A DNA stretch of 64,000 nt from Burkholderiales bacterium (GTDB taxonomy: Bacteria > Pseudomonadota > Gammaproteobacteria > Burkholderiales > Burkholderiaceae_C): the NCBI GenBank assembly GCA_016223165.1, contig JACRPO010000009.1:1426001-1490000 (forward strand), read 5' to 3'. How positions within the stretch are numbered: the stretch's first letter is position 1; every line of letters starts with the position of its first letter. The notes beneath the pieces were generated by a model, which was not told where the DNA came from, did no database searches, and saw nothing but the letters and a program-made list of their open reading frames with translations. Shown one piece after another: positions 1-12,296 of the stretch. Position numbers and translations under genes: made by a program.

Positions 1-649
1 CCTTGCGGCGGCGCGTCGCGCCCAGGGCAACGAGGCCGAGGCCCATCAGCGCCAGCGAGGTGGGCTCCGGGATCAGGTTGATGTCGAGGCTCGCGCCCTG
101 CGGGAAGGTGCGATAGCTCACGCCGGAGTAGTCGAAGTAGGCCGAGATCGTGGCGGAGTAGGTGCCGCTCAGTTGGGCAGCGCCGGAACCGGCCGCGTTA
201 TAGACGTTGGTGCCGAAAATCAGCTCGCTCATGCCGAAGGCGGTGTTGTCGTCGTCGACGTAGCCGGCCCAGGCGACCTGCGCACCCGTCGGGCCCGAGC
301 CGCCTCCTTCGAGATAGAACGGCATCGGATCGGCGGCGGCGTCGAGATCCGTATACGTGAGGTTGATCCACAGCCCGCCGCTGTTGGAGCGCCCGTTGAC
401 GCCGGCGTTGAGGTGCAGGAGCAACGGGTTGTCGTTGGCCGCGCCAACCGCCGTGGTGAACGTCCAGGCCCCGAACGCACCCGCAAAGGCCACCCCGCCC
501 ACCGAGGCGTCCTGGTCCAGGGCGCTGCCGTCGGCAATGTTCAATGTGTTCGTGCCATCCGTGATCTGCACGATCAGCGCGGCCTGGCTCATCGCCGGTG
601 CAAGGGCGAACGTCGCAGCGGCGGCGATCGGGGCGAGAAGCTTGTTCAT
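1..649 (-). CDS. PEP-CTERM sorting-domain secreted protein (3' end runs off window)
   Basis: Reverse strand translation starts MNKLLAPIAAAATFALAPAMSQA (signal peptide) and ends ...INLIPEPTSLALMGLGLVALGATRRRK, a textbook PEP + hydrophobic helix + basic tail. Missing from the supplied ORF track because its stop lies outside the window. Confidence 0.93.
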   Translation of the reverse strand, partial: MNKLLAPIAAAATFALAPAMSQAALIVQITDGTNTLNIADGSALDQDASVGGVAFAGAFGAWTFTTAVGAANDNPLLLHLNAGVNGRSNSGGLWINLTYTDLDAAADPMPFYLEGGGSGPTGAQVAWAGYVDDDNTAFGMSELIFGTNVYNAAGSGAAQLSGTYSATISAYFDYSGVSYRTFPQGASLDINLIPEPTSLALMGLGLVALGATRRRK

Positions 650-701
650 GTTCAAGGTGGTTACTCCAGCAACGGACTTGGGTAAGACGTGCCTCCCTTG
701 T

Positions 702-718
702 AGCAACCGCAATGCCAA
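702..718 (-). promoter_or_regulatory. Putative sigma-54 (-24/-12) promoter of the PEP-CTERM gene
   Basis: Reverse strand TTGGCAT-TGCGG-TTGCT matches TGGCAY-N5-TTGCW, ~53 nt upstream of the ATG; a PrsR-type sigma-54 activator is encoded in the same window. Confidence 0.7.
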
Positions 719-949
719 CCTTTGCAGACAAGGACTTAGCGTCGGCGCGTGAACAACTTGCAACCGGACTGTCAGGTCCGTCGACAGCGACTTTGTTCAC
801 ACGTCGAGGTCGGGTGCGCACTCGGTCACGCGCGCAGGACGTGCATCGCGAAAACGCCGCCTCTCCCACGAATGCGGGGTCGCTCGAACGAGCTCTCGCG
901 GGGCCTCAACCCTAGAATCGACCGAACACAAGATGAACAGGCAACGCCC

Positions 950-1585
950 ATGAACGACGACAAGTCATCAGCCTCCGCGGGCACCTCCGAGACAACTTCC
1001 GAGGCTCGCAGCCATGGGCCGCGCGTGCGGCTCGACCGCCGCGCCTTGTTGCGCGCCGGCGCCGGAGCAACGCCGGTGCTCCTGACCCTGGCCAGCAGCC
1101 CCGTGTCGGCGGCCAACAGCTGCGTCGTGGCCTCGTCGTTCGTCTCGGTGGCGACGTTCAAGAGCCGCAATCCCACCGTGACCACGGTCAACTGTGCGAC
1201 GCGTACGACCGAAGACTGGCGCAATGCGTGCATGAGCAATACGCAGTTGACATGCGCCAAGCCACTGGTGTCGAGCACGTTCGGGAGCACGTCTTCCAGC
1301 TACAACAGCAAGACGCTTCGCCAGGTGCTCTGCGACCCTGCAGGCATCTCGTCGAGCGGCGAGCTCGGCGTGCTCCAGCACCTGATCGCGCTCAACCTGA
1401 GCGTCACGCAAGGCTTCATGCGCATGTCCGCCGGCAACGTCAGCCCGGCCTACCTCGGCGCGGTCTGGTGCAACTACAAGAACAACGGCAACCAGTACCG
1501 ACTGCCTTCCTCGACCGTCGTCTGGAGCTCGACACAGTTGATCAGCTGGCTGCGGTACCAGCTCAACTATTCGATGCCCCTCTGA
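950..1585 (+). CDS. Secreted/Tat-like protein of unknown function upstream of the HPr-rel-A triad
   Basis: ATG at 950 gives MNDDKSSAS...RLDRRALLRAGAGATPVLLTLASSPVSAANSC: RR motif, hydrophobic core, Ala-X-Ala-like site. The track start at 749 is probably too early. Confidence 0.7.
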   Translation: MNDDKSSASAGTSETTSEARSHGPRVRLDRRALLRAGAGATPVLLTLASSPVSAANSCVVASSFVSVATFKSRNPTVTTVNCATRTTEDWRNACMSNTQLTCAKPLVSSTFGSTSSSYNSKTLRQVLCDPAGISSSGELGVLQHLIALNLSVTQGFMRMSAGNVSPAYLGAVWCNYKNNGNQYRLPSSTVVWSSTQLISWLRYQLNYSMPL

Positions 1586-1710
1586 ACCTGCGCCTCCTCC
1601 GGCGCGGTCCGGTTCTCCGGACCCGAGGCGCGGGGTCATGAACGGCGACTGGGCCGGAGGGCCGCACGGCCACAGGGCAACAAGGCCGCGCGGCCACACA
1701 ATCGGCCGCC

Positions 1711-2022
1711 ATGCAGATCTACTCGGCCCCCGCCGACTTGATGCTGAGGCATTGGGACGGCGAAGCGACGGCGGTGGCTCGCCTGCCCGAGGCAGGCACG
1801 ACTCACCTCATCGGCAGCGAGGCGCTTGCGGTCGTCCAGACCGTGCTGGAGAGCCGCGAAGGATTGGCCTTGCGCGATATCGCGCACGCGCTCGGTCTCG
1901 TTGCTGACGGCGACGACGCCATCGACGCGGGCTTGCAGCGCATCATTGACGGTTTGGTTCAATCCGGCCTCCTGCGCCGACTGACTGACGATGCCGAGCC
2001 TGGCCGAGAAGGGCCGCGATGA
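1711..2022 (+). CDS. PqqD-like protein, HPr-rel-A system type
   Basis: ~103 aa, PqqD-like composition (LIGSEALAVVQTVLE...LRDIAHALG...ID GLVQSGLLRRL); overlaps the downstream HprK-like gene. Confidence 0.75.
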   Translation: MQIYSAPADLMLRHWDGEATAVARLPEAGTTHLIGSEALAVVQTVLESREGLALRDIAHALGLVADGDDAIDAGLQRIIDGLVQSGLLRRLTDDAEPGREGPR

Positions 2023-2941
2023 GGTACGTGCCGCGCTGACGCGCCATGGCCCGACGGGTGGCCTGCGCCTGCACCTGGGGCCCTACGTGGCGCGCATCCG
2101 CTCGCCGCTGCCGGCGGTGGCCGGCGCCGTGGCCTCGCTCTATCGGCACCACACCGTTGCCGACGATTCCTGCTTCGTCGACTTCGACGTCGCCGTGCGG
2201 CGCCCCCGCAGCCTGCGGGCGTTGTGGCGGCCGCAGGTGGTTTTCGAGTTCGAAGGCGAGGAGCCATTCAATCCGCTGCCCGGAGACCAGGGGTTCCCGC
2301 TGCTGGAATGGGGTTTGAACTGGTGTGTCTACGGCTTGTGCCACCAGCACATGACCCTGCACTCGGCCGTGCTCGAGCGCAACGGCCGCGCCGTGCTGCT
2401 GCCGGCGCCTTCCGGCTCGGGCAAGAGCACGCTTTGCGCGGCGCTCGTCTTCAGCGGCTGGCGTCTGCTCTCCGACGAACTCGCCCTCATCGCGCCGCAG
2501 ACCGGCGAACTGCTGCCGCTGCCGCGACCGGTGAGCCTCAAAAACGCGTCGATCGAAGTCATCCGGCTGTTCGCGCCACAGGTCGAGTTCGGCTCCACCG
2601 TCGAGGAGACGGCCAAGGGAGTGGTGGCGCATTTCCCGCCGCCGGCCAGTGCCGTGCAGGCGAGCCAGCAGCGAGCGGTGCCGGGCTGGGTGATCTTCCC
2701 CAAGTACGTCGAGGGCGCGCCGGCGCGCCTCGTGCCGATGGAGCGTGCGCAATCCTTCATGCGGCTGATCGAGAACGCCTTCAACTACGACGTTTTCGGT
2801 GGCGAAGGATTCGAGCTGCTCGGCTCGGTCGTCGACCGCAGCCTGTGCTACTCGTTCGAGTACGGCGACCTGGCCGAGGCGATGGCGCTGTTCGACCGCC
2901 TCGCGCGAGGTGAGCGCGGTGAACGAGGTGAACGTGCTTGA
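1991..2941 (+). CDS. HprK-related kinase A
   Basis: P-loop LLPAPSGSGKSTLCAALV followed by SDELALI, as in HPr kinase-like proteins; adjacent to PqqD-like and nucleotidyltransferase genes. Confidence 0.85.
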   Translation: MPSLAEKGRDEVRAALTRHGPTGGLRLHLGPYVARIRSPLPAVAGAVASLYRHHTVADDSCFVDFDVAVRRPRSLRALWRPQVVFEFEGEEPFNPLPGDQGFPLLEWGLNWCVYGLCHQHMTLHSAVLERNGRAVLLPAPSGSGKSTLCAALVFSGWRLLSDELALIAPQTGELLPLPRPVSLKNASIEVIRLFAPQVEFGSTVEETAKGVVAHFPPPASAVQASQQRAVPGWVIFPKYVEGAPARLVPMERAQSFMRLIENAFNYDVFGGEGFELLGSVVDRSLCYSFEYGDLAEAMALFDRLARGERGERGERA

Positions 2942-4058
2942 ACGCCCGGACCTCGTCATCGAGGCCCTGACACGTCCGGCGCCGCACTTTGCCGGCTGGA
3001 GCGCCGCGCAGTGGACGTCGTTCTTCCAGCAGGCACGCAACGCCGGCCTGCTGGGCCGTGCCGGTGCGCGCCTGCGTGGCTTGTGGCCCCTGGACCAGCC
3101 GCCCCCCTGGCCGGCGAACCTCGAAGGCCACCTCGTCGCGGCCGAGAGACTGATGCGGGCCCAGCGCGCCGAGGTGGAACGCGAACTCGGCCACATCGCT
3201 CGCGCGCTGGCCGGCCTCGGCGCGCCGGTGCTCGTCCTCAAGGGCGCGGCCTACCTCGCCGCCAGCCTGCCGCCGGGCGCTTCACGTGTGTTCTCGGACG
3301 TCGACATCCTCGTGCCCAGGCAGGCCATCGCCGAGGCCGAGTCCCGCCTCATGCTGCACGGCTGGGCGGGCACGCACGACAACGCCTACGACCAGCGCTA
3401 CTACCGCGAGTGGATGCACGAGTTGCCGCCGATGCAGCACCTGCATCGGGGCACGACGCTTGACCTGCATCACAACATCCTGCCCTCCACGGCACGCTTC
3501 AAGCCGTCCGGCGAGCACCTCGTCGACGGCGCGGTGCCGCTGGTCGGGCGCCCGGGCCTGTACGTGCTCGGCCCGGCCGACATGGTCCTGCACTGCATGA
3601 CGCATCTGTTCATGAACGAGGAGACGAGCCGTGCCCTGCGGGACCTGTCCGACCTGGACCTGCTGCTCAGGCACTTCGGCAGCAGCCCCGCGTTCTGGAC
3701 GCAACTGACGCAACGTGCTGCGCTGCTGGACCTGGAGCGGCCCCTGTACTACGGCCTGCGGCACGCCGCGCGCGTGCTGGGCACGCCCGTGCCGGCCGAG
3801 GTGACGGCGCGCGCCGAGCACCGCGCGCCGGTCGCGCCGACGCGGGTGCTCATGGATGCGATCTGGCACCGCGCGCTGCGCTGCCCTCATCCCAGTGCGG
3901 CAGCCGCCGGTGGTGCGTTGGCACGCTTCGCCCTCTACGTGCGCGGGCACTGGCTGCGCATGCCGCCTTGGATGCTGGCGCGTCATCTCACGGTCAAGGC
4001 CCTGCGCCTGCACGAGCGGTCTGCGACCAAAGCTGTAACAGCGCCCACTCAAGGTTGA
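2919..4058 (+). CDS. Nucleotidyltransferase family protein (PF14907-like)
   Basis: VLVLKGAAYLAASLPPGASRVFSDVDILVPRQ motif; GTG starts at 2910 or 2919 overlap the kinase stop codon (exact start uncertain). Confidence 0.8.
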   Translation: MNEVNVLERPDLVIEALTRPAPHFAGWSAAQWTSFFQQARNAGLLGRAGARLRGLWPLDQPPPWPANLEGHLVAAERLMRAQRAEVERELGHIARALAGLGAPVLVLKGAAYLAASLPPGASRVFSDVDILVPRQAIAEAESRLMLHGWAGTHDNAYDQRYYREWMHELPPMQHLHRGTTLDLHHNILPSTARFKPSGEHLVDGAVPLVGRPGLYVLGPADMVLHCMTHLFMNEETSRALRDLSDLDLLLRHFGSSPAFWTQLTQRAALLDLERPLYYGLRHAARVLGTPVPAEVTARAEHRAPVAPTRVLMDAIWHRALRCPHPSAAAAGGALARFALYVRGHWLRMPPWMLARHLTVKALRLHERSATKAVTAPTQG

Positions 4059-4313: not shown

Positions 4314-5696
4314 ATGATCAGAATCTTCCATCACTACGTGCATCGCGCTTCGCTTCGAAGCATGTTCTTCGATCTCGCGGTGGCGCTGATGCTGGCGCTG
4401 GGCGCGGTGACGTATCAGGTGGGTGGCCTCGGTCAGGCGGTGCCGCTGGCCGGCGGGCAGCTGATGTCGTTCGCCGCAGCGCTGTTCGTGGTCAACAGCG
4501 CCTCCGGCCTCTACGAGCCCCAGAACTCGCTGTCGCTGTCGAGGTCGTGCGCCCGCGCGATCTTCGTGCTGCTCATCGTGCTGCCGTTGGCCTATGCCAT
4601 CTTCGGCTTCCTGCCCACGCACCTGAGCAGCCGCGAGGCAGTGCAGTTCTCGGTCATGGCCGGGGTGTCGGCGCTCGTGCTGCGGCGCGTCTATGTCTCG
4701 CAGCGCTCGGCGGTGCCGCGTGGCCGCACCCGCATCCTCATCTTCGGCGCCGGTCCCGCTGCGCAGGTCGTGAGCAACACGCTGCGTTCGGCCGACCCCA
4801 ACGCCGTGATCGTCGGCTTCATGCCGGGGCCCAACGAGACCGAGACCGCGGTGCCCGCCGCCGAACTGCTGACCAGCCGCGGCTCGCTCACCGAAACGGC
4901 GATCAGCCTCGGCGTCGACGAAATCGTCGTCGCCCTCACCGAGCGCCGCTCGGGCAGCATGCCGCTGCGGCAATTGCTCGACTGCAAGCTCTCCGGCGTC
5001 AAGGTCTACGACCTCAATACGCACTTCGAGAAGACGCTCGGCCAGATCCGCGTCGACTACCTCAGTGCCAGCTGGCTGATCTTCGGCGACGGCTTCAACC
5101 AGGGTGCCTTCCGTACCTTCGTCAAGCGCGTCTTCGACATCGTCTGTGCGACGCTGCTGTTCCTGGTCTCGGCGCCGATCATGGCCGTCACCGCGCTGCT
5201 GATCCGCTTCGAGAGTGCCGGCCCCGTCTTCTATCGACAGGAGCGCGTCGGCCTCAACGGCCGCCCTTTCCTGGTGACGAAGTTCCGCAGCATGCGCACC
5301 GACGCCGAGAAGGACGGCAAGCCGCGCTGGGCCGCCGCGAACGACGATCGCATCACGCGCGTGGGCCACGTCATCCGCCGCTTGCGCATCGACGAGCTGC
5401 CGCAGATCTTCAACGTCATCAATGGCGACATGAGCCTCGTGGGCCCGCGCCCCGAGCGGCCGTACTTCGTCGAGCAGCTGACGCAGAAGATTCCCTTCTA
5501 CGCCGTGCGCCACAGCGTCAAGCCCGGCGTCACCGGCTGGGCCCAGGTGCGCTATGCCTATGGCGCGACGGTCGAAGACTCGCAGGAGAAGCTGCAGTTC
5601 GACCTGTACTACGTGAAGAACCACACGCTGTTCCTGGACCTCGTGGTCCTGCTCGAGACGGTAGGCGTCGTCCTCACCGGCAAGGGCGCGCGCTGA
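4314..5696 (+). CDS. Polyprenyl-phosphate sugar transferase, PEP-CTERM/XrtA system type
   Basis: N-terminal TM region; C-terminal bacterial sugar transferase motifs: KRVFDIVCATLLFLVSAP, GPVFYRQERVG, TKFRSMRTDAE, DELPQIFNVINGDMSLVGPRPERP. Confidence 0.92.
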   Translation: MIRIFHHYVHRASLRSMFFDLAVALMLALGAVTYQVGGLGQAVPLAGGQLMSFAAALFVVNSASGLYEPQNSLSLSRSCARAIFVLLIVLPLAYAIFGFLPTHLSSREAVQFSVMAGVSALVLRRVYVSQRSAVPRGRTRILIFGAGPAAQVVSNTLRSADPNAVIVGFMPGPNETETAVPAAELLTSRGSLTETAISLGVDEIVVALTERRSGSMPLRQLLDCKLSGVKVYDLNTHFEKTLGQIRVDYLSASWLIFGDGFNQGAFRTFVKRVFDIVCATLLFLVSAPIMAVTALLIRFESAGPVFYRQERVGLNGRPFLVTKFRSMRTDAEKDGKPRWAAANDDRITRVGHVIRRLRIDELPQIFNVINGDMSLVGPRPERPYFVEQLTQKIPFYAVRHSVKPGVTGWAQVRYAYGATVEDSQEKLQFDLYYVKNHTLFLDLVVLLETVGVVLTGKGAR

Positions 5697-5847: not shown

Positions 5848-7959
5848 GTGGAAGCCGCGGTGGATGACATGGCAGTGGCCGGCTACGCGCTCAGCGCCGC
5901 CGTCCACCTGATCTTTCTCGCCTTCCTGGCCTGGACGGGCCGCATGCCGCGCGGCTCGCCGCTCAGCTCGGGTCTGTTCATCGGCGCGCTGCTGGCCAGC
6001 GCGCTGTGGGCCGCGGCGCAGGCACTGGGGCAGGCCGCGGGCGACCCGGCCTGGCTGGCCGCTGCGGCCCTGCTCGACCTCACACGCTACGCGATGTGGT
6101 TGGCCTTCCTCTACACGTTGATCGGCGCGATGCGGGAGGGTGACTCGCCGCGCGTCCCTTCTGCCCTGCGCTGGGTCCTGGTGGCCACGCTGGTCGCCGC
6201 GCTGCTGCTTCAGGGCGTGCGCGTCGCGGCGGGCGCCATCGTCCATCCCGGGTCGCGGTTCGTTCTCCTGGTGCTCCTGGCGCTGCCGCTACTGGGCCTG
6301 CTGCTGCTCGAGCAGTTGTTCCGCAACCTCGGCGAGGACCCACGCTGGTTCGCCAAGCCGGTGTGCATCGGCCTGGCGATCATCTTCGCCTTCGACATCT
6401 ACATGGTGTCGCAGGCCTTCCTCTTCGGGCAGGCCGACGAAGACACCCTCGGCGCCCGCGGTCCCGTGCACACGTTGGCCGTGCCTTTCCTGATGATCGC
6501 CGCGCGCCGGCGCGCCGACTGGATTGCCCGGCTGCAGGTCTCGCGCTCGGCGGTCTTCCACTCGGCGACGCTCGTGCTGGCCGGGCTGTACCTGCTCTTC
6601 GTCTCCAGCCTCGGCTACTACGTGCGCTTCTTCGGCGGCACCTGGGGTCGCGGCCTGCAGCTCAGCCTGCTGTTCGCGGCACTCGCATTGCTCGTCGCCT
6701 TCGCGGTCTCCGGCGCCCTGCGGTCATGGCTGCGTGTCTTCGTCGGCAAGCACTTCTTCAGCTACCGCTTCGACTACCGCGAGGAGTGGCTGCGCTTCAC
6801 TGCCATGCTGTCCACGCGCGGCTCGCCGCACGAGATCGGCCGGCTGATCGTGCGTGGACTTGCCGACATGGTCGAGTGCCCCGCCGGCAGCTTGTGGACG
6901 CGCGCCGACCCCGACGGCCCGTTCCGGCAGATGGCGCGCTGGAACGCCGCGCACATCGAAGGCCAGGAGCCAGCGGACAGCGCCTTCAGTGCCTTCCTTC
7001 GCCGCACGGGCTGGGTCATCGATCTCGACCAGCTGCGCTCCGCGCCGCGCCTGTACGACGGCCTCGCGCTGCCAACCTGGCTGCTCGGCGCACCGCCTCC
7101 CTGGCTGGTGGTGCCGCTGCTCGCCGGCGACGACCTGCTCGGCTTCGTGCTGCTGGCGCATCCACGCACGCGTGTCGACGTCAACTGGGAGGTGCTCGAC
7201 CTGCTCAAGACCGCCAGTCGCCAGGCCGCCGGTCACCTGGCCCAGATGCAGGCCACCGAGGCATTGCTGGAGGCGCGCAAGTTCGACGCCTTCAACCGCA
7301 TGTCGGCCTTCGTCGTGCACGACCTCAAGAACATCGTCACCCAGCTGTCGCTGATGCTGAAGAACGCGGAACGCCTGCACGACAACCGCGAATTCCAGCG
7401 CGACATGTTGCTGACCGTGGAAAGCTCGCTCGCCAAGATGCGGCGCCTGATGCTGCAATTGCGCGAAGGGACTCCAGCGGCCGGCGTCAGCGTCGGTGTG
7501 GCGCTGAGTCCCATCGTTCGGCGCCTGCAAGCGCTGGCCAAGGGGCGCGGACGCACGCTCGAGGTCGCGCAACTGGAACACCTGGCCACGCGTGGCCACG
7601 AAGACCGGCTCGAACGGGTGCTCGGGCATCTGGTGCACAACGCGCTCGATGCCACCACGGCCGACGGCAGCGTCTGGATGTCGGTCGAGCGCGAAAGCGG
7701 TCAGGTCCGCGTCGAGGTCGGTGACACCGGAGTAGGGATGACCGAGGAATTCGTGCAGACGCGCCTGTTCAAGCCGTTCAGCAGCACCAAGGGCAGCGGC
7801 ATGGGCGTGGGCACCTTCGAGAGCGCGCAGTACGTGCGCGAACTCGGCGGCAGCATCGAAGTCGCCAGCCGCCCGGCCGAGGGCACCCTCATCACCGTGC
7901 GGCTGCCGCTCTTCGAGAGGCACCACGACTCCGACCTGATGCCGCCGGACTTCCGATGA
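5848..7959 (+). CDS. prsK: PEP-CTERM system histidine kinase PrsK
   Basis: Multi-TM N-terminus, GAF-like region, FVVHDLKNIVTQLSLML phosphoacceptor box, HKxATPase boxes (GDTGVGMTEEF, GSGMGVGTFES); overlaps response regulator ORF. An alternative start is the ATG at 5869. Confidence 0.9.
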   Translation: MEAAVDDMAVAGYALSAAVHLIFLAFLAWTGRMPRGSPLSSGLFIGALLASALWAAAQALGQAAGDPAWLAAAALLDLTRYAMWLAFLYTLIGAMREGDSPRVPSALRWVLVATLVAALLLQGVRVAAGAIVHPGSRFVLLVLLALPLLGLLLLEQLFRNLGEDPRWFAKPVCIGLAIIFAFDIYMVSQAFLFGQADEDTLGARGPVHTLAVPFLMIAARRRADWIARLQVSRSAVFHSATLVLAGLYLLFVSSLGYYVRFFGGTWGRGLQLSLLFAALALLVAFAVSGALRSWLRVFVGKHFFSYRFDYREEWLRFTAMLSTRGSPHEIGRLIVRGLADMVECPAGSLWTRADPDGPFRQMARWNAAHIEGQEPADSAFSAFLRRTGWVIDLDQLRSAPRLYDGLALPTWLLGAPPPWLVVPLLAGDDLLGFVLLAHPRTRVDVNWEVLDLLKTASRQAAGHLAQMQATEALLEARKFDAFNRMSAFVVHDLKNIVTQLSLMLKNAERLHDNREFQRDMLLTVESSLAKMRRLMLQLREGTPAAGVSVGVALSPIVRRLQALAKGRGRTLEVAQLEHLATRGHEDRLERVLGHLVHNALDATTADGSVWMSVERESGQVRVEVGDTGVGMTEEFVQTRLFKPFSSTKGSGMGVGTFESAQYVRELGGSIEVASRPAEGTLITVRLPLFERHHDSDLMPPDFR

Positions 7960-9338
7960 ACCAGAGCGCCACGCCCTCCTCGCCCGCCCTCCTCATCGTC
8001 GAGGACGACCTCGCGCTGCAGCGGCAGATCCGCTGGTCGCTCGACAGCTTCGAGGCCGTCACCGCCGCCGACCGCGAGTCGGCCCTGCTGCAGTTCCGCC
8101 GCCACGCGCCGCCCGTCGTGACGATGGACCTCGGCCTGCCGCCCGACCCCGACTCCGTTTCCGAGGGGTTCAGGCTGCTCGAGCAACTGCTCGACCTGGA
8201 CGCGAACGTGAAGGTCATCGTGCTCACCGGCCAGAACGCGCAGGCGCACGCCCTGCGCGCGGTGGCGCAGGGGGCCTACGACTTCCTCGCCAAGCCCTTC
8301 GAGCCCGATGTGCTCAAGCTCACCATCGAGCGCGCGCTGCGCCTGTCCGAACTGCAGGCCGAGAACCGCCGCCTGCAATCGGCCCAGGGCGTCGATGCGC
8401 TCGGCGGACTCATCACGCGCGATGCGCGCATGCTGCGCCTCGCGCGCACCATCGAACGTGTCGCCTCCAGCAACGCCACCGTGATGCTGCTCGGCGAGTC
8501 GGGCACCGGCAAGGAGGTGCTGGCGCAGGGGCTGCACGCCGCGAGCAAGCGCGCCGGGCGTTTCGTCGCCATCAACTGCGCGGCCATTCCCGAGAACCTG
8601 CTCGAGAGCGAGCTCTTCGGCTACGAGAAGGGCGCCTTCACCGGCGCCGGCAAGACCACGCCCGGCAAGATCGAGACCGCCCACGGCGGCACGCTGATGC
8701 TCGACGAGATCGGCGACCTGCCAGCCTCGCTGCAGGCCAAGCTGCTGCGCTTTCTCGAACAACGCACGATCGAGCGGCTCGGCGGGCGCAGCGAGATCCC
8801 CGTGGACGTGCGCGTCGTCTGCGCCACGCACCAGGACCTGAAGAACCAGATCCGCGACGGCCGCTTCCGCGAGGACCTCTACTACCGCCTGGCCGAGATC
8901 GTGGTCGAGATTCCGCCGCTGCGAGAGCGCACCGGCGACGCGGTCCTGCTCGCGCACGCCTTCCTGCGCCGCTTCGGGCAGGAGCAGCGCCGTCCCGGGC
9001 TCATGTTCGCCGAGGATGCGATGCACGCCATCGAAGGCCATCCGTGGCCGGGCAACGTGCGCGAGCTGCTCAATTGCGTCAAGCGCGCCGCCATCATGGC
9101 CGACGGAGAGCGCCTCACGGCCGAGGACCTCGGCCTCGCGGCCGCCGAAACCCCCGAGGGCACGCCGGGCGGCCCCTCCGACCTCAACCTGCGCGCCATC
9201 CGCGAAGCGGCCGAACGCGAAGCCATCGTCACGGCGCTGGCGCGCACGAACGGCAACATCGGCCGCTCGGCGGAGCTGCTGGGCGTGAGCCGCCCGACGA
9301 TCTACGACCTGATGAAGCGGTTGGGCATCAAGCAGTGA
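7956..9338 (+). CDS. prsR: PEP-CTERM-box sigma-54-dependent response regulator PrsR
   Basis: Receiver domain, [21 protein letters not shown], Fis-type HTH at C-terminus ([25 protein letters not shown]). Confidence 0.92.
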
Positions 9339-9497
9339 CAAATGCCCGGCGTGCCGGCTCGTGCATGCCGTGTCGCCTCGCACGCACCAGCCCGCCACCC
9401 GCCCACGGAACGATGGCCTTTGCCGGCCCGACCCGAGACAATCGCCCCCCCGGAAGCCACCCGGCGCGCACGAGCGCCGGTGCCGGCCGGCCGCCCT

Positions 9498-12296
9498 ATG
9501 AGGATCCCTGCCGTGAGCATCTACCGCCCCCCTCTTGCCGTCGCCGCCCTCGTCCTCGTCCTCGCCGCCGCCCTCGGAGGCTGTCGGGGCGACTCGGAGG
9601 ACAAGCTCCTCGAGTCGGCGCAGGCGTTCATGAGCAAGAAGGAATACAAGTCGGCGACGATCCAGCTGAAGACGCTTCTGCAGCGCAACGCCAACTCGCC
9701 GCAGGCGCGCTACCTGCTGGGCAGGGCGTTGCTCGAGACCGGCGACCCGGCCGGCGCGCTGCTCGAGCTGCGCAAGGCACGCGACCTTGCCCACCCGGAC
9801 GACCAGGTCGTGCCCGAGATGGCGCGCGCCATGCTCCTCACCGGAGAACATGCGCGCGTGATCTCGCAGTTCGGCGCCACCGTGCTCGGCACGCCGGCCG
9901 CCCAGGCCGACCTCTACACGAGCGTGGCCATCGCGCACGCGGCCTCGGCGCAGTTCGACAAGGCCAAGGAGTCGCTGGCGCGCGCGCTGCGCGCGAACGC
10001 CCAGTTCGCACCGGCCCTGATCCTGCAGGCGCGCCTGAAGGCAGGCGAGAACGATCTCGACGGCGCGCTGAAGGTGCTCGACGACGTGCTGGGTCGCGAG
10101 GCGAACAACGAGCGCGCCGGGACGCTGCGGGGCGAACTGCTCTGGCGTGGCAAGCGTGACGAGGCAGGCGCGCTGGCGGCACTGCGCAAGGTCATCGCGT
10201 CGACCCCGGCGGCCGTCGCGGCCCATGTGGCGCTCATCGGCATTCACGCCGAACTGGGCCGCGCCGCCGAGGCGAAGGCGCAGTTCCTGGAGCTCAAGAA
10301 GGCCGCGCCCAACCATCCGGACACCCTCTACATCGAAGGCCAGGTCGCCTTGCAGGAAGGCAACGCGCAGGCCGCGCGCGACATCGCCACGCGCATGCTC
10401 AAGGCGATGCCCAACCATCCGCGCGTGCAGCTGCTGGCGGGCGCGGCGGATTTCCGCCTGCGCTCCTACAACCAGGCCGAGACCTACCTCACCCGTGCGC
10501 TTCGCGCGATGCCCTACCACAACGGCGCACGTCAGCTGCTCGCGCAGACCTACCTGCGCATGCAGCAGCCGGCCAAGGCGCTGGAGGTGCTGGGTCCGGC
10601 CATCGAACAGAAGTCCGTCGACGGCGCCACGCTCGCGCTGGCCGGCGAGGCCCACATGCTGCTCGGCGACACGAAGCGTGCCGACCAGTGGTTCCAGCTC
10701 GCCGCCAAGGCCTCTCCGACAGACCCACGCGTGCGCACCGCGCTGGCCCTGGCGCAGTACGCGCGCGGCGAGACGCAGCCGGCCATCGACGCTCTCGAGT
10801 CGATCGCCGCGTCCGATGCCGGCGGCTCGCGCGCCGACCTCGCGCTCATCTCCGCGCGCCTGCGCGCTGCCGACTTCGCCGGCGCGCTCAAGGCTGTCGA
10901 TGCGTTGCAAAAGAAGATGCCCGAGCGCGCGCTGCCCGAGCTGCTGCGCGGTCGCGTCCTGCTCGCGAAGAAGGACACCGCCGGGGCCACCGCCGCCTTC
11001 GAAACGGCACTGCGCAAGGACCCGAAGTTCGTGCTCGCCGCCTCGGCGCTGGCAAGCCTGGACCTGGCGGCCGGCCGCAACGACGCCGCCCGCAAGCGCA
11101 TCCAGGACGTGGTTGCCGCCGACCCCAACAACGTCCAGGCGCGCATGGCGCTGGCCGAAGTCACGGCGCGCACCGGCGGCACGGGCACGGAGGTGGCGCA
11201 GATCTTCGCCGCCGCCGTCAAGGCCAACCCGGCGCAACCCGAGCCGCGCCTGCTCTACGTCGAGCACCTGCTGCGCATGGGCGACGCCCAGGCCGCCCTC
11301 ATCGTCGCGCAGGACGGTATCGCCGCGCTGCCGGGCCACAACGACCTGATGTCCGCGCTCGGCCGCGCCCAGCTCGCGGCCGGCGACGCCCGGCAAGCCG
11401 TCGGCACCTTCGGTCAACTCGCGACGAAGAACCCCGCCGAGGCCATCCACCAACTGCGCCTGGCCGAAGCGCACGTGCAGAACAAGGACCTCGGCGCCGC
11501 ACGTGCCGCCCTGCGCAAGGCGCTCGAGATCGAGCCCGAGTCGCTGGCGGCCAAACGCGGCCTGGCGGCGCTCGCGCTGCAGCAGGAACGCCCCGATGAA
11601 GCCCGCGTCATCGCCCGCGAGATCCAGAAGTCCCGCCCCAAGGAGGCGAGCGGCTACCAGCTCGAGGGCGATGTCGAGCGGCAGCAGCGCAACTGGCCGG
11701 CCGCGGTCGCTGCCTACCGCAAGGCCTTCGCCATCGCGCGCGGCACCGACCTCGCGATCCGCCTGCACCAGTCGCTGTTCGCCGGCGGCCAGCGCGCCGA
11801 TGCCGACCGCCTCGTCGCCGATTGGCAGAAGGAGAACCCGAAGGACTTCGGCTTCAGCTACTACCTCGGCGACCTCGCGATGTCGCGTGCCGACTTCGCT
11901 TCGGGCGAGAAGCACTACCGCGCCGTCCTGGACGTGCAGCCGCGCAACGCGCTCGCGCTCAACAACGTCGCCTGGCTGATGGCCAAGCAAGGCAAGACCG
12001 GGGCCGTGCCGCTGGCCGAGCAGGCCAACCAGATCCTGCCCAATCGGCCGCAGCTGATGGACACGCTGGCCACCGCGCTGGCTGCCGAAGGCGAGGTCAA
12101 GCGTGCCGTCGACGTGCAGAAGCGCGCCGTGCAGATCGATCGCCACGACCCGAACCTGCGCCTGAACCTGGCCCGCCTCTACCTCAAGGCAGGCGAGAAG
12201 CCGCAGGCGCGCGCCGAACTCGAGGACCTGGCCCGCCTGGGCGAGCGCTTCCGCGCCCAGGCCGAAGTGACGGACCTGCTGCGGCTCGCGCGTTGA
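9498..12296 (+). CDS. prsT: PEP-CTERM system TPR-repeat lipoprotein PrsT
   Basis: Lipobox (LAAALGGC), many TPR repeats, directly downstream of prsK-prsR. ATG at 9498 preferred over the track start at 9342. Confidence 0.9.
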   Translation: MRIPAVSIYRPPLAVAALVLVLAAALGGCRGDSEDKLLESAQAFMSKKEYKSATIQLKTLLQRNANSPQARYLLGRALLETGDPAGALLELRKARDLAHPDDQVVPEMARAMLLTGEHARVISQFGATVLGTPAAQADLYTSVAIAHAASAQFDKAKESLARALRANAQFAPALILQARLKAGENDLDGALKVLDDVLGREANNERAGTLRGELLWRGKRDEAGALAALRKVIASTPAAVAAHVALIGIHAELGRAAEAKAQFLELKKAAPNHPDTLYIEGQVALQEGNAQAARDIATRMLKAMPNHPRVQLLAGAADFRLRSYNQAETYLTRALRAMPYHNGARQLLAQTYLRMQQPAKALEVLGPAIEQKSVDGATLALAGEAHMLLGDTKRADQWFQLAAKASPTDPRVRTALALAQYARGETQPAIDALESIAASDAGGSRADLALISARLRAADFAGALKAVDALQKKMPERALPELLRGRVLLAKKDTAGATAAFETALRKDPKFVLAASALASLDLAAGRNDAARKRIQDVVAADPNNVQARMALAEVTARTGGTGTEVAQIFAAAVKANPAQPEPRLLYVEHLLRMGDAQAALIVAQDGIAALPGHNDLMSALGRAQLAAGDARQAVGTFGQLATKNPAEAIHQLRLAEAHVQNKDLGAARAALRKALEIEPESLAAKRGLAALALQQERPDEARVIAREIQKSRPKEASGYQLEGDVERQQRNWPAAVAAYRKAFAIARGTDLAIRLHQSLFAGGQRADADRLVADWQKENPKDFGFSYYLGDLAMSRADFASGEKHYRAVLDVQPRNALALNNVAWLMAKQGKTGAVPLAEQANQILPNRPQLMDTLATALAAEGEVKRAVDVQKRAVQIDRHDPNLRLNLARLYLKAGEKPQARAELEDLARLGERFRAQAEVTDLLRLAR

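Follow-up and report, generated by a model that had tools for sequence, protein, structure and literature searches.

A conserved Tat-signal protein with a serine tag as candidate substrate of an HPr-rel-A kinase cassette in an exosortase A locus

The HPr-rel-A system is annotated by NCBI as a pair consisting of a kinase (TIGR04352) and a PqqD peptide chaperone (TIGR04353). It is common in environmental proteobacteria, and the models that name it assign it no function and point to no upstream protein as possible substrate. Within the open-access literature, no paper was found on the pair or on its exosortase-associated version. In the window studied here, a stretch of 64,000 nucleotides from a Burkholderiales bacterium, such a kinase is encoded together with a PqqD-like protein and a nucleotidyltransferase-like protein (NTase), raising the question of which molecule this cassette modifies. 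The original prediction proposed that the triad may phosphorylate or nucleotidylate a secreted substrate in the exosortase context, and named the N-terminus of the 950-1585 product and PEP-CTERM leaders as possible partners of the PqqD-like protein.

A conserved unit of four genes

The three overlapping genes were indeed found within 950-4058, with an overlap of 32 bp between the PqqD-like and kinase frames and of 23-32 bp between the kinase and NTase frames, according to the GTG start chosen (Table 1). The surroundings of the cassette are those of an exosortase A polysaccharide locus, in agreement with the PEP-CTERM context first assigned to it: a divergent PEP-CTERM gene lies on one side, an XrtA-type glycosyltransferase and the PrsK, PrsR and PrsT genes lie downstream, and XrtA is found about 9 kb before the window, with further exopolysaccharide (EPS) genes, recognised by eye, in between.

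Table 1. Features of the cassette and its flanks, in window coordinates
Feature	Position	Strand	Basis or remark
PEP-CTERM gene	2-763	-	divergent from cassette
Tat-signal protein, 211 aa (predicted Tat-exported substrate)	950..1585	+	Tat-like signal, Cys/Ser tag, helical domain
Twin-arginine pair R30-R31 in its signal	1037..1042	+	RR in 76/76 aligned relatives
Cys/Ser tag C58...C82	1121..1195	+	conserved Cys/Ser columns
Candidate phospho-acceptors Ser62, Ser66, Ser72	1133-1135, 1145-1147, 1163-1165	+	
PqqD-like RiPP recognition element (RRE), 103 aa	1711..2022	+	positional orthologues match TIGR04353; AF2/Foldseek
HprK-related kinase A, 316 aa	1991..2941	+	TIGR04352
NTP_transf_5 nucleotidyltransferase-like protein (NTase)	2919..4058 (GTG start 2910 or 2919)	+	PF14907
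XrtA-type EPS glycosyltransferase	4314-5696	+	TIGR03013 above cut-off
PrsK	5848-7959	+	TIGR02916 above cut-off
PrsR	7956-9338	+	TIGR02915 above cut-off
PrsT	9342-12296	+	TIGR02917 above cut-off

Eighty loci were fetched around related kinases, giving 81 with the window, and homologues of the 950-1585 product were found in them with iterated profiles. Such a homologue is encoded immediately upstream of the kinase in 79/81 loci, the RRE is present in 79/81 and the NTase lies downstream of the kinase in 80/81, the order Tat-signal protein, PqqD, kinase and NTase being constant across nearly all of them. These loci span Betaproteobacteria, Gammaproteobacteria, a Malonomonas and metagenome-assembled genomes (MAGs) labelled Magnetovibrio and Planctomycetaceae, and the closest kinases (84% identity) belong to Rubrivivax-type MAGs. 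Since the upstream proteins are mostly only 16-30% identical to that of the window, and identity between members is about 25%, the synteny has been maintained over a large divergence. The conserved unit comprises four genes, whose linkage exceeds chance, and the 950-1585 product, previously considered only as a possible source of a leader, is its fourth conserved member. The identification of this predicted secreted member and of its invariant serine tag is new here.

The association was also observed at the level of whole genomes. Among 61 relatives, matches to the Tat-signal protein were found in 26 genomes, all 26 kinase-positive, at places that adjoin the kinase; a second match in one of them (G020) lies at a contig end. 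Among 299 genomes of the order, the kinase was present in 50 and tag-bearing matches in 41, all of them kinase-positive, with no such match in any kinase-negative genome. The other nine kinase-positive genomes carry a second kinase clade and encode a diverged RR-signal protein in the same upstream place.

Clustering of neighbouring ORFs across the loci gave no additional family in most of them, and the remaining frequent neighbour families consisted of antisense shadows of cassette genes or of genes with EPS or unrelated functions. Two loci deviate in composition: a Nitrosospira MAG (L074:10001-12000) encodes the kinase and the NTase without a detectable Tat-signal protein or RRE, which counts against the mechanism proposed below, and in another locus (L096:6605-8876 and 8964-12014) the cassette seems to be duplicated, as this locus has one RRE and one NTase in addition to the usual set.

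Recognition element, kinase and nucleotidyltransferase

The PqqD-like protein of the window scored 15.5 bits against TIGR04353 (cut-off 35), and 71 of its 73 positional orthologues matched this model at E<=0.01, the best at 7.6e-22. In its AF2 model (pLDDT 90), three strands are followed by a winged helix, and the best PDB match by Foldseek was the TbiB1-leader complex 5v1v (E 1.9e-4, TMt 0.74), with PqqD and TfuB1 also among the best; independently, the sequence profile found TfuB1 and TbiB1 as its best PDB matches. The 1711-2022 product is, as modelled, a leader-binding PqqD/RRE fold, and the lack of such a fold, named in the original prediction as an outcome that would speak against it, did not occur. 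Known RREs bind leaders along an edge strand. By analogy, the strand 30-35, in which conservation peaks at T31 and H32, would be at the place of leader binding.

The kinase reached 381.5 bits against TIGR04352 (HprK_rel_A), far above the cut-off of 200, and its residues H124, G-x-G-K-S-T (142-147), D162 and E163 are invariant in 82/82 sequences, with the HprK structure 1jb1 aligning over the catalytic His, Lys and Asp. Canonical HprK and the cassette kinase thus share the same P-loop kinase family, but the latter carries Glu in place of the second Asp and scored only 20.1 bits against the canonical model TIGR00679, whose cut-off is 240. The NTase matched PF14907 with 180 bits (cut-off 31; 7.5e-53), and its KG, R and D-x-D residues are conserved in 79-80 of 80 sequences. 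As judged from these alignments, the catalytic residues of both enzymes are intact.

Membership of the HprK fold family suggests another reading, in which the target of the kinase is HPr, a sugar or some other small molecule, and the upstream gene encodes an independent secreted product with no link to the kinase beyond the operon. Small molecules are the substrates of many P-loop kinases, and EPS genes adjoin the cassette. However, a genuine HprK (330 bits) is encoded elsewhere in the genome (G000:C18), which makes HPr an unlikely target, action on HPr being another outcome that the original prediction named as speaking against it; additionally, the TIGR00679 score is far too low, and the linkage to the RRE and the Tat-signal protein is near-absolute, also outside an EPS context. 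This reading is therefore regarded as very unlikely.

The Tat-signal protein and its serine tag

Neither the 950-1585 product nor its relatives belong to any family in Pfam or NCBIfam. Their alignment has a mean column identity of 12% and contains a Cys/Ser tag in which C58 is conserved in 75/77 sequences, S62 in 77/77, S66 in 74/77, S72 in 70/77 and C82 in 76/77. The preceding signal follows the pattern SRRxF/L ... P..LTL.S.P..A and fits a Tat signal; Tat export is predicted from the RR motif alone, and TatC is encoded elsewhere in the same genome. Conservation of the signal extends to residues for which Tat export has no known requirement, a pattern compatible with its recognition by the RRE. 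The leader of the window's protein contains no Tyr and no Trp, and neither YxxP nor WxxP is a consensus of the family.

The mature part (residues 81-205) was confidently predicted as an all-helical domain, and the Foldseek search of this model against PDB gave no match, so that the mature domain offers no functional clue. Relatives of the helical domain ('EGLTPGYWKNH') occur in giant ORFs of about 1000-2900 codons (L136, L137, L138 and L139), which are devoid of the serine tag and match the family profile only from position 77-82 on, beyond the tag. The tag therefore belongs to the cassette-linked proteins and not to the fold. The C-termini of proteins of the window's type (type 1) are variable; no C-terminal PEP-CTERM sequence was recognised, as there was no Pfam or NCBIfam match to support one, and a single C-terminal phospho-Ser of the paeninodin kind was rejected for the window's protein because these C-termini are not conserved.

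A second substrate type was found with the second kinase clade (A4) in Burkholderiales, in which the upstream RR-signal protein has an invariant C-[WY]-x-S near the C-terminus. The overall motif of this type 2 is C-[WYF]-x-S, a Sphingomonas plasmid protein showing TCFLSV, whereas a Vibrio plasmid protein has the type-1 tag, CSITSCMSGNAS. Type-2 proteins lack Ser62, and thus the acceptor site must differ between the clades. On a fasttree phylogeny of the kinases, substrate type requires 2 changes versus 15.2 in shuffles, with types assigned by pattern, 14 rows left without a type and the two plasmid rows forming long branches. Such tracking of the kinase phylogeny would follow if these serines are the target of the kinase, although shared operon inheritance would yield it as well. 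The pairing of the second clade with Tat-type C-[WYF]-x-S proteins, and hence the existence of two substrate types, is new here. In two loci of genus g116 (L125 and L128), the Tat-type upstream proteins show no clear type-1 tag and no type-2 motif, and they may represent a third type.

Two characterised groups of peptide clusters share part of this equipment. In the linear polyphosphorylated peptide (LPP) clusters of Bacillota (Nat Commun, May 2026; PMC13381572), the core is phosphorylated at Ser3 by an HprK-like kinase together with an RRE; these clusters often sit in capsule loci, their role is unknown, and deletion of LppN had no effect in the published host (PMC13381572), which makes the NTase step of the cassette uncertain. 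LPP clusters and the cassette have in common a discrete RRE, an HprK-like kinase and an NTP transferase (LppN and the cassette NTase being possibly of one family), as well as a precursor with a conserved N-terminus and a variable C-terminus, and the phospho-Ser directly after the LPP leader may have its counterpart in the candidate Ser tag after the signal. In contrast, the SpI-like leader peptidase and the MsbA-like exporter of LPP clusters are both absent from the families common to the cassette loci, the cassette leader is a twin-arginine signal without the YxxP of characterised lasso and LPP RREs, and the LPP substrate is a small peptide, whereas that of the cassette would be a protein some 200 aa long, for which a folded domain is predicted.

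In lasso peptide clusters, the target of the kinases PadeK, ThcoK and PsmK is a C-terminal Ser, and in pseudomycoidin the phosphorylation by PsmK is followed by a hexose on the phosphate, for which PsmN is required (PMC9266682). Paeninodin and pseudomycoidin clusters resemble the cassette in their RRE (B1), HprK-like kinase and NTase-annotated partner, and the near-C-terminal Ser of type-2 proteins recalls their acceptor. Nevertheless, their kinases have the catalytic set His-Lys-Asp-Asp, unlike the His-Lys-Asp-Glu of the cassette kinase, and neither the cassette nor its conserved neighbours encode the lasso cyclase, B2 peptidase or lasso core of the paeninodin type. The cassette is probably a member of the NCBI HPr-rel-A pair; with the peptidase, the transporter, the cyclase and the YxxP motif all lacking, it is not an LPP or lasso cluster.

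In another reading, the Tat-signal protein is a RiPP precursor cut to a small active phosphorylated peptide: the RRE, the kinase and the NTase form the tailoring set of paeninodin- and LPP-type RiPPs, the distribution of conservation resembles that of LPP precursors, and the C-terminus of type-2 proteins carries C-[WYF]-x-S. Considering that a conserved peptidase, cyclase or ABC exporter was not found beside the cassette and that the mature region is confidently predicted as a folded domain, such processing seems rather unlikely.

Proposed mechanism and exosortase A context

The reading preferred here is that the RRE-guided kinase, and then the NTase, probably modify the tag serines of the Tat-signal protein before export. 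The 950-1585 product would be made with a twin-arginine signal that doubles as leader; the PqqD-like RRE would bind this leader and so offer the neighbouring Cys/Ser tag to the HprK-related kinase, which would move one or more ATP phosphates onto Ser62, possibly also onto Ser66 and Ser72. The NTP_transf_5 protein might then add a nucleotidyl or hexose group to the phosphate. After modification, the protein would leave via the general Tat machinery, and cleavage by signal peptidase would place the modified serines close to the new N-terminus on the outside of the cytoplasm. The place of action of the protein in exosortase A bacteria might be the exopolysaccharide or biofilm matrix. Most likely, the cassette works as an RRE-guided Ser phosphorylation system, with extension by the NTase as a possible further step.

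The choice of this substrate is supported by the gene linkage, the phylogenetic profile, the invariant tag and the substrate type that follows the kinase phylogeny, and the enzyme roles are supported by the conserved active sites and by the LPP and pseudomycoidin precedents. Points that weigh against the mechanism are the leader without YxxP, the LppN deletion without effect, the type-2 proteins without Ser62 and the L074 locus. The idea that the triad modifies a secreted substrate is consequently well supported as a hypothesis by the RRE fold, the kinase residues and the serine-tagged protein, but the Tat-signal protein is a likelier substrate than PEP-CTERM proteins in general; the latter were rejected as main substrate, as there are cassettes with no exosortase genes in their neighbourhood. 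With a candidate substrate and a likely acceptor serine now named, the function of the HPr-rel-A pair becomes testable. If the proposal is true, RRE-guided polyphosphorylation, so far found with small peptides, would extend to a folded Tat-exported protein, and exosortase A biofilm systems might have a new component.

The exosortase context given by the original prediction holds mainly at the level of genomes. XrtA was found in 73/299 genomes of the order and in 47/50 kinase-positive ones (Fisher p 3e-32, a value that ignores shared ancestry), a profile that is new here; however, EPS or XrtA markers lie within about 8 kb in only 24/50 well-covered loci. Complete cassettes are also carried by plasmids of Vibrio alfacsensis (L143:10875-13942) and Sphingomonas parapaucimobilis (L144:8218-10841), beside phosphonate and Pst phosphate-uptake genes and away from EPS loci. 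In both plasmid cassettes, the upstream gene is annotated as hypothetical.

This co-occurrence, the position of the cassette within an XrtA/EPS locus and the requirement for PsmN in placing hexose on phospho-Ser (PMC9266682) could also indicate that a phospho-sugar, made by the kinase and the NTase-type enzyme, links the Tat-signal protein covalently to exopolysaccharide, as an anchoring parallel to exosortase. Since about half of the loci have no EPS gene nearby, the plasmid cassettes adjoin phosphate or phosphonate genes, the co-occurrence does not account for ancestry and no linkage chemistry is known, anchoring of this kind appears unlikely. The broader claim, that of an unrecognised and widespread proteobacterial system in which an RRE-directed kinase and a glycosyl- or nucleotidyl-transferring enzyme build a phospho-sugar joining a Tat-exported protein to exopolysaccharide, is unlikely as well; if true, it would mean that RiPP machinery has been reused to anchor a folded secreted protein alongside exosortase.

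As to expression, a sigma-54 promoter was sought for the cassette, and the sole nearby match, TGGCATTGCGGTTGC at 703-717 (-) with one mismatch, directly precedes the divergent PEP-CTERM gene, where a PEP-CTERM gene under PrsR control would be expected to have one; matches of this kind are no more numerous in the window than by chance. Additionally, the GC-rich intergenic segment 1586-1710, between the genes of the Tat-signal protein and the RRE, gives an RNA that folds better than shuffles (z -2.8), possibly an attenuator giving substrate and enzymes different expression.
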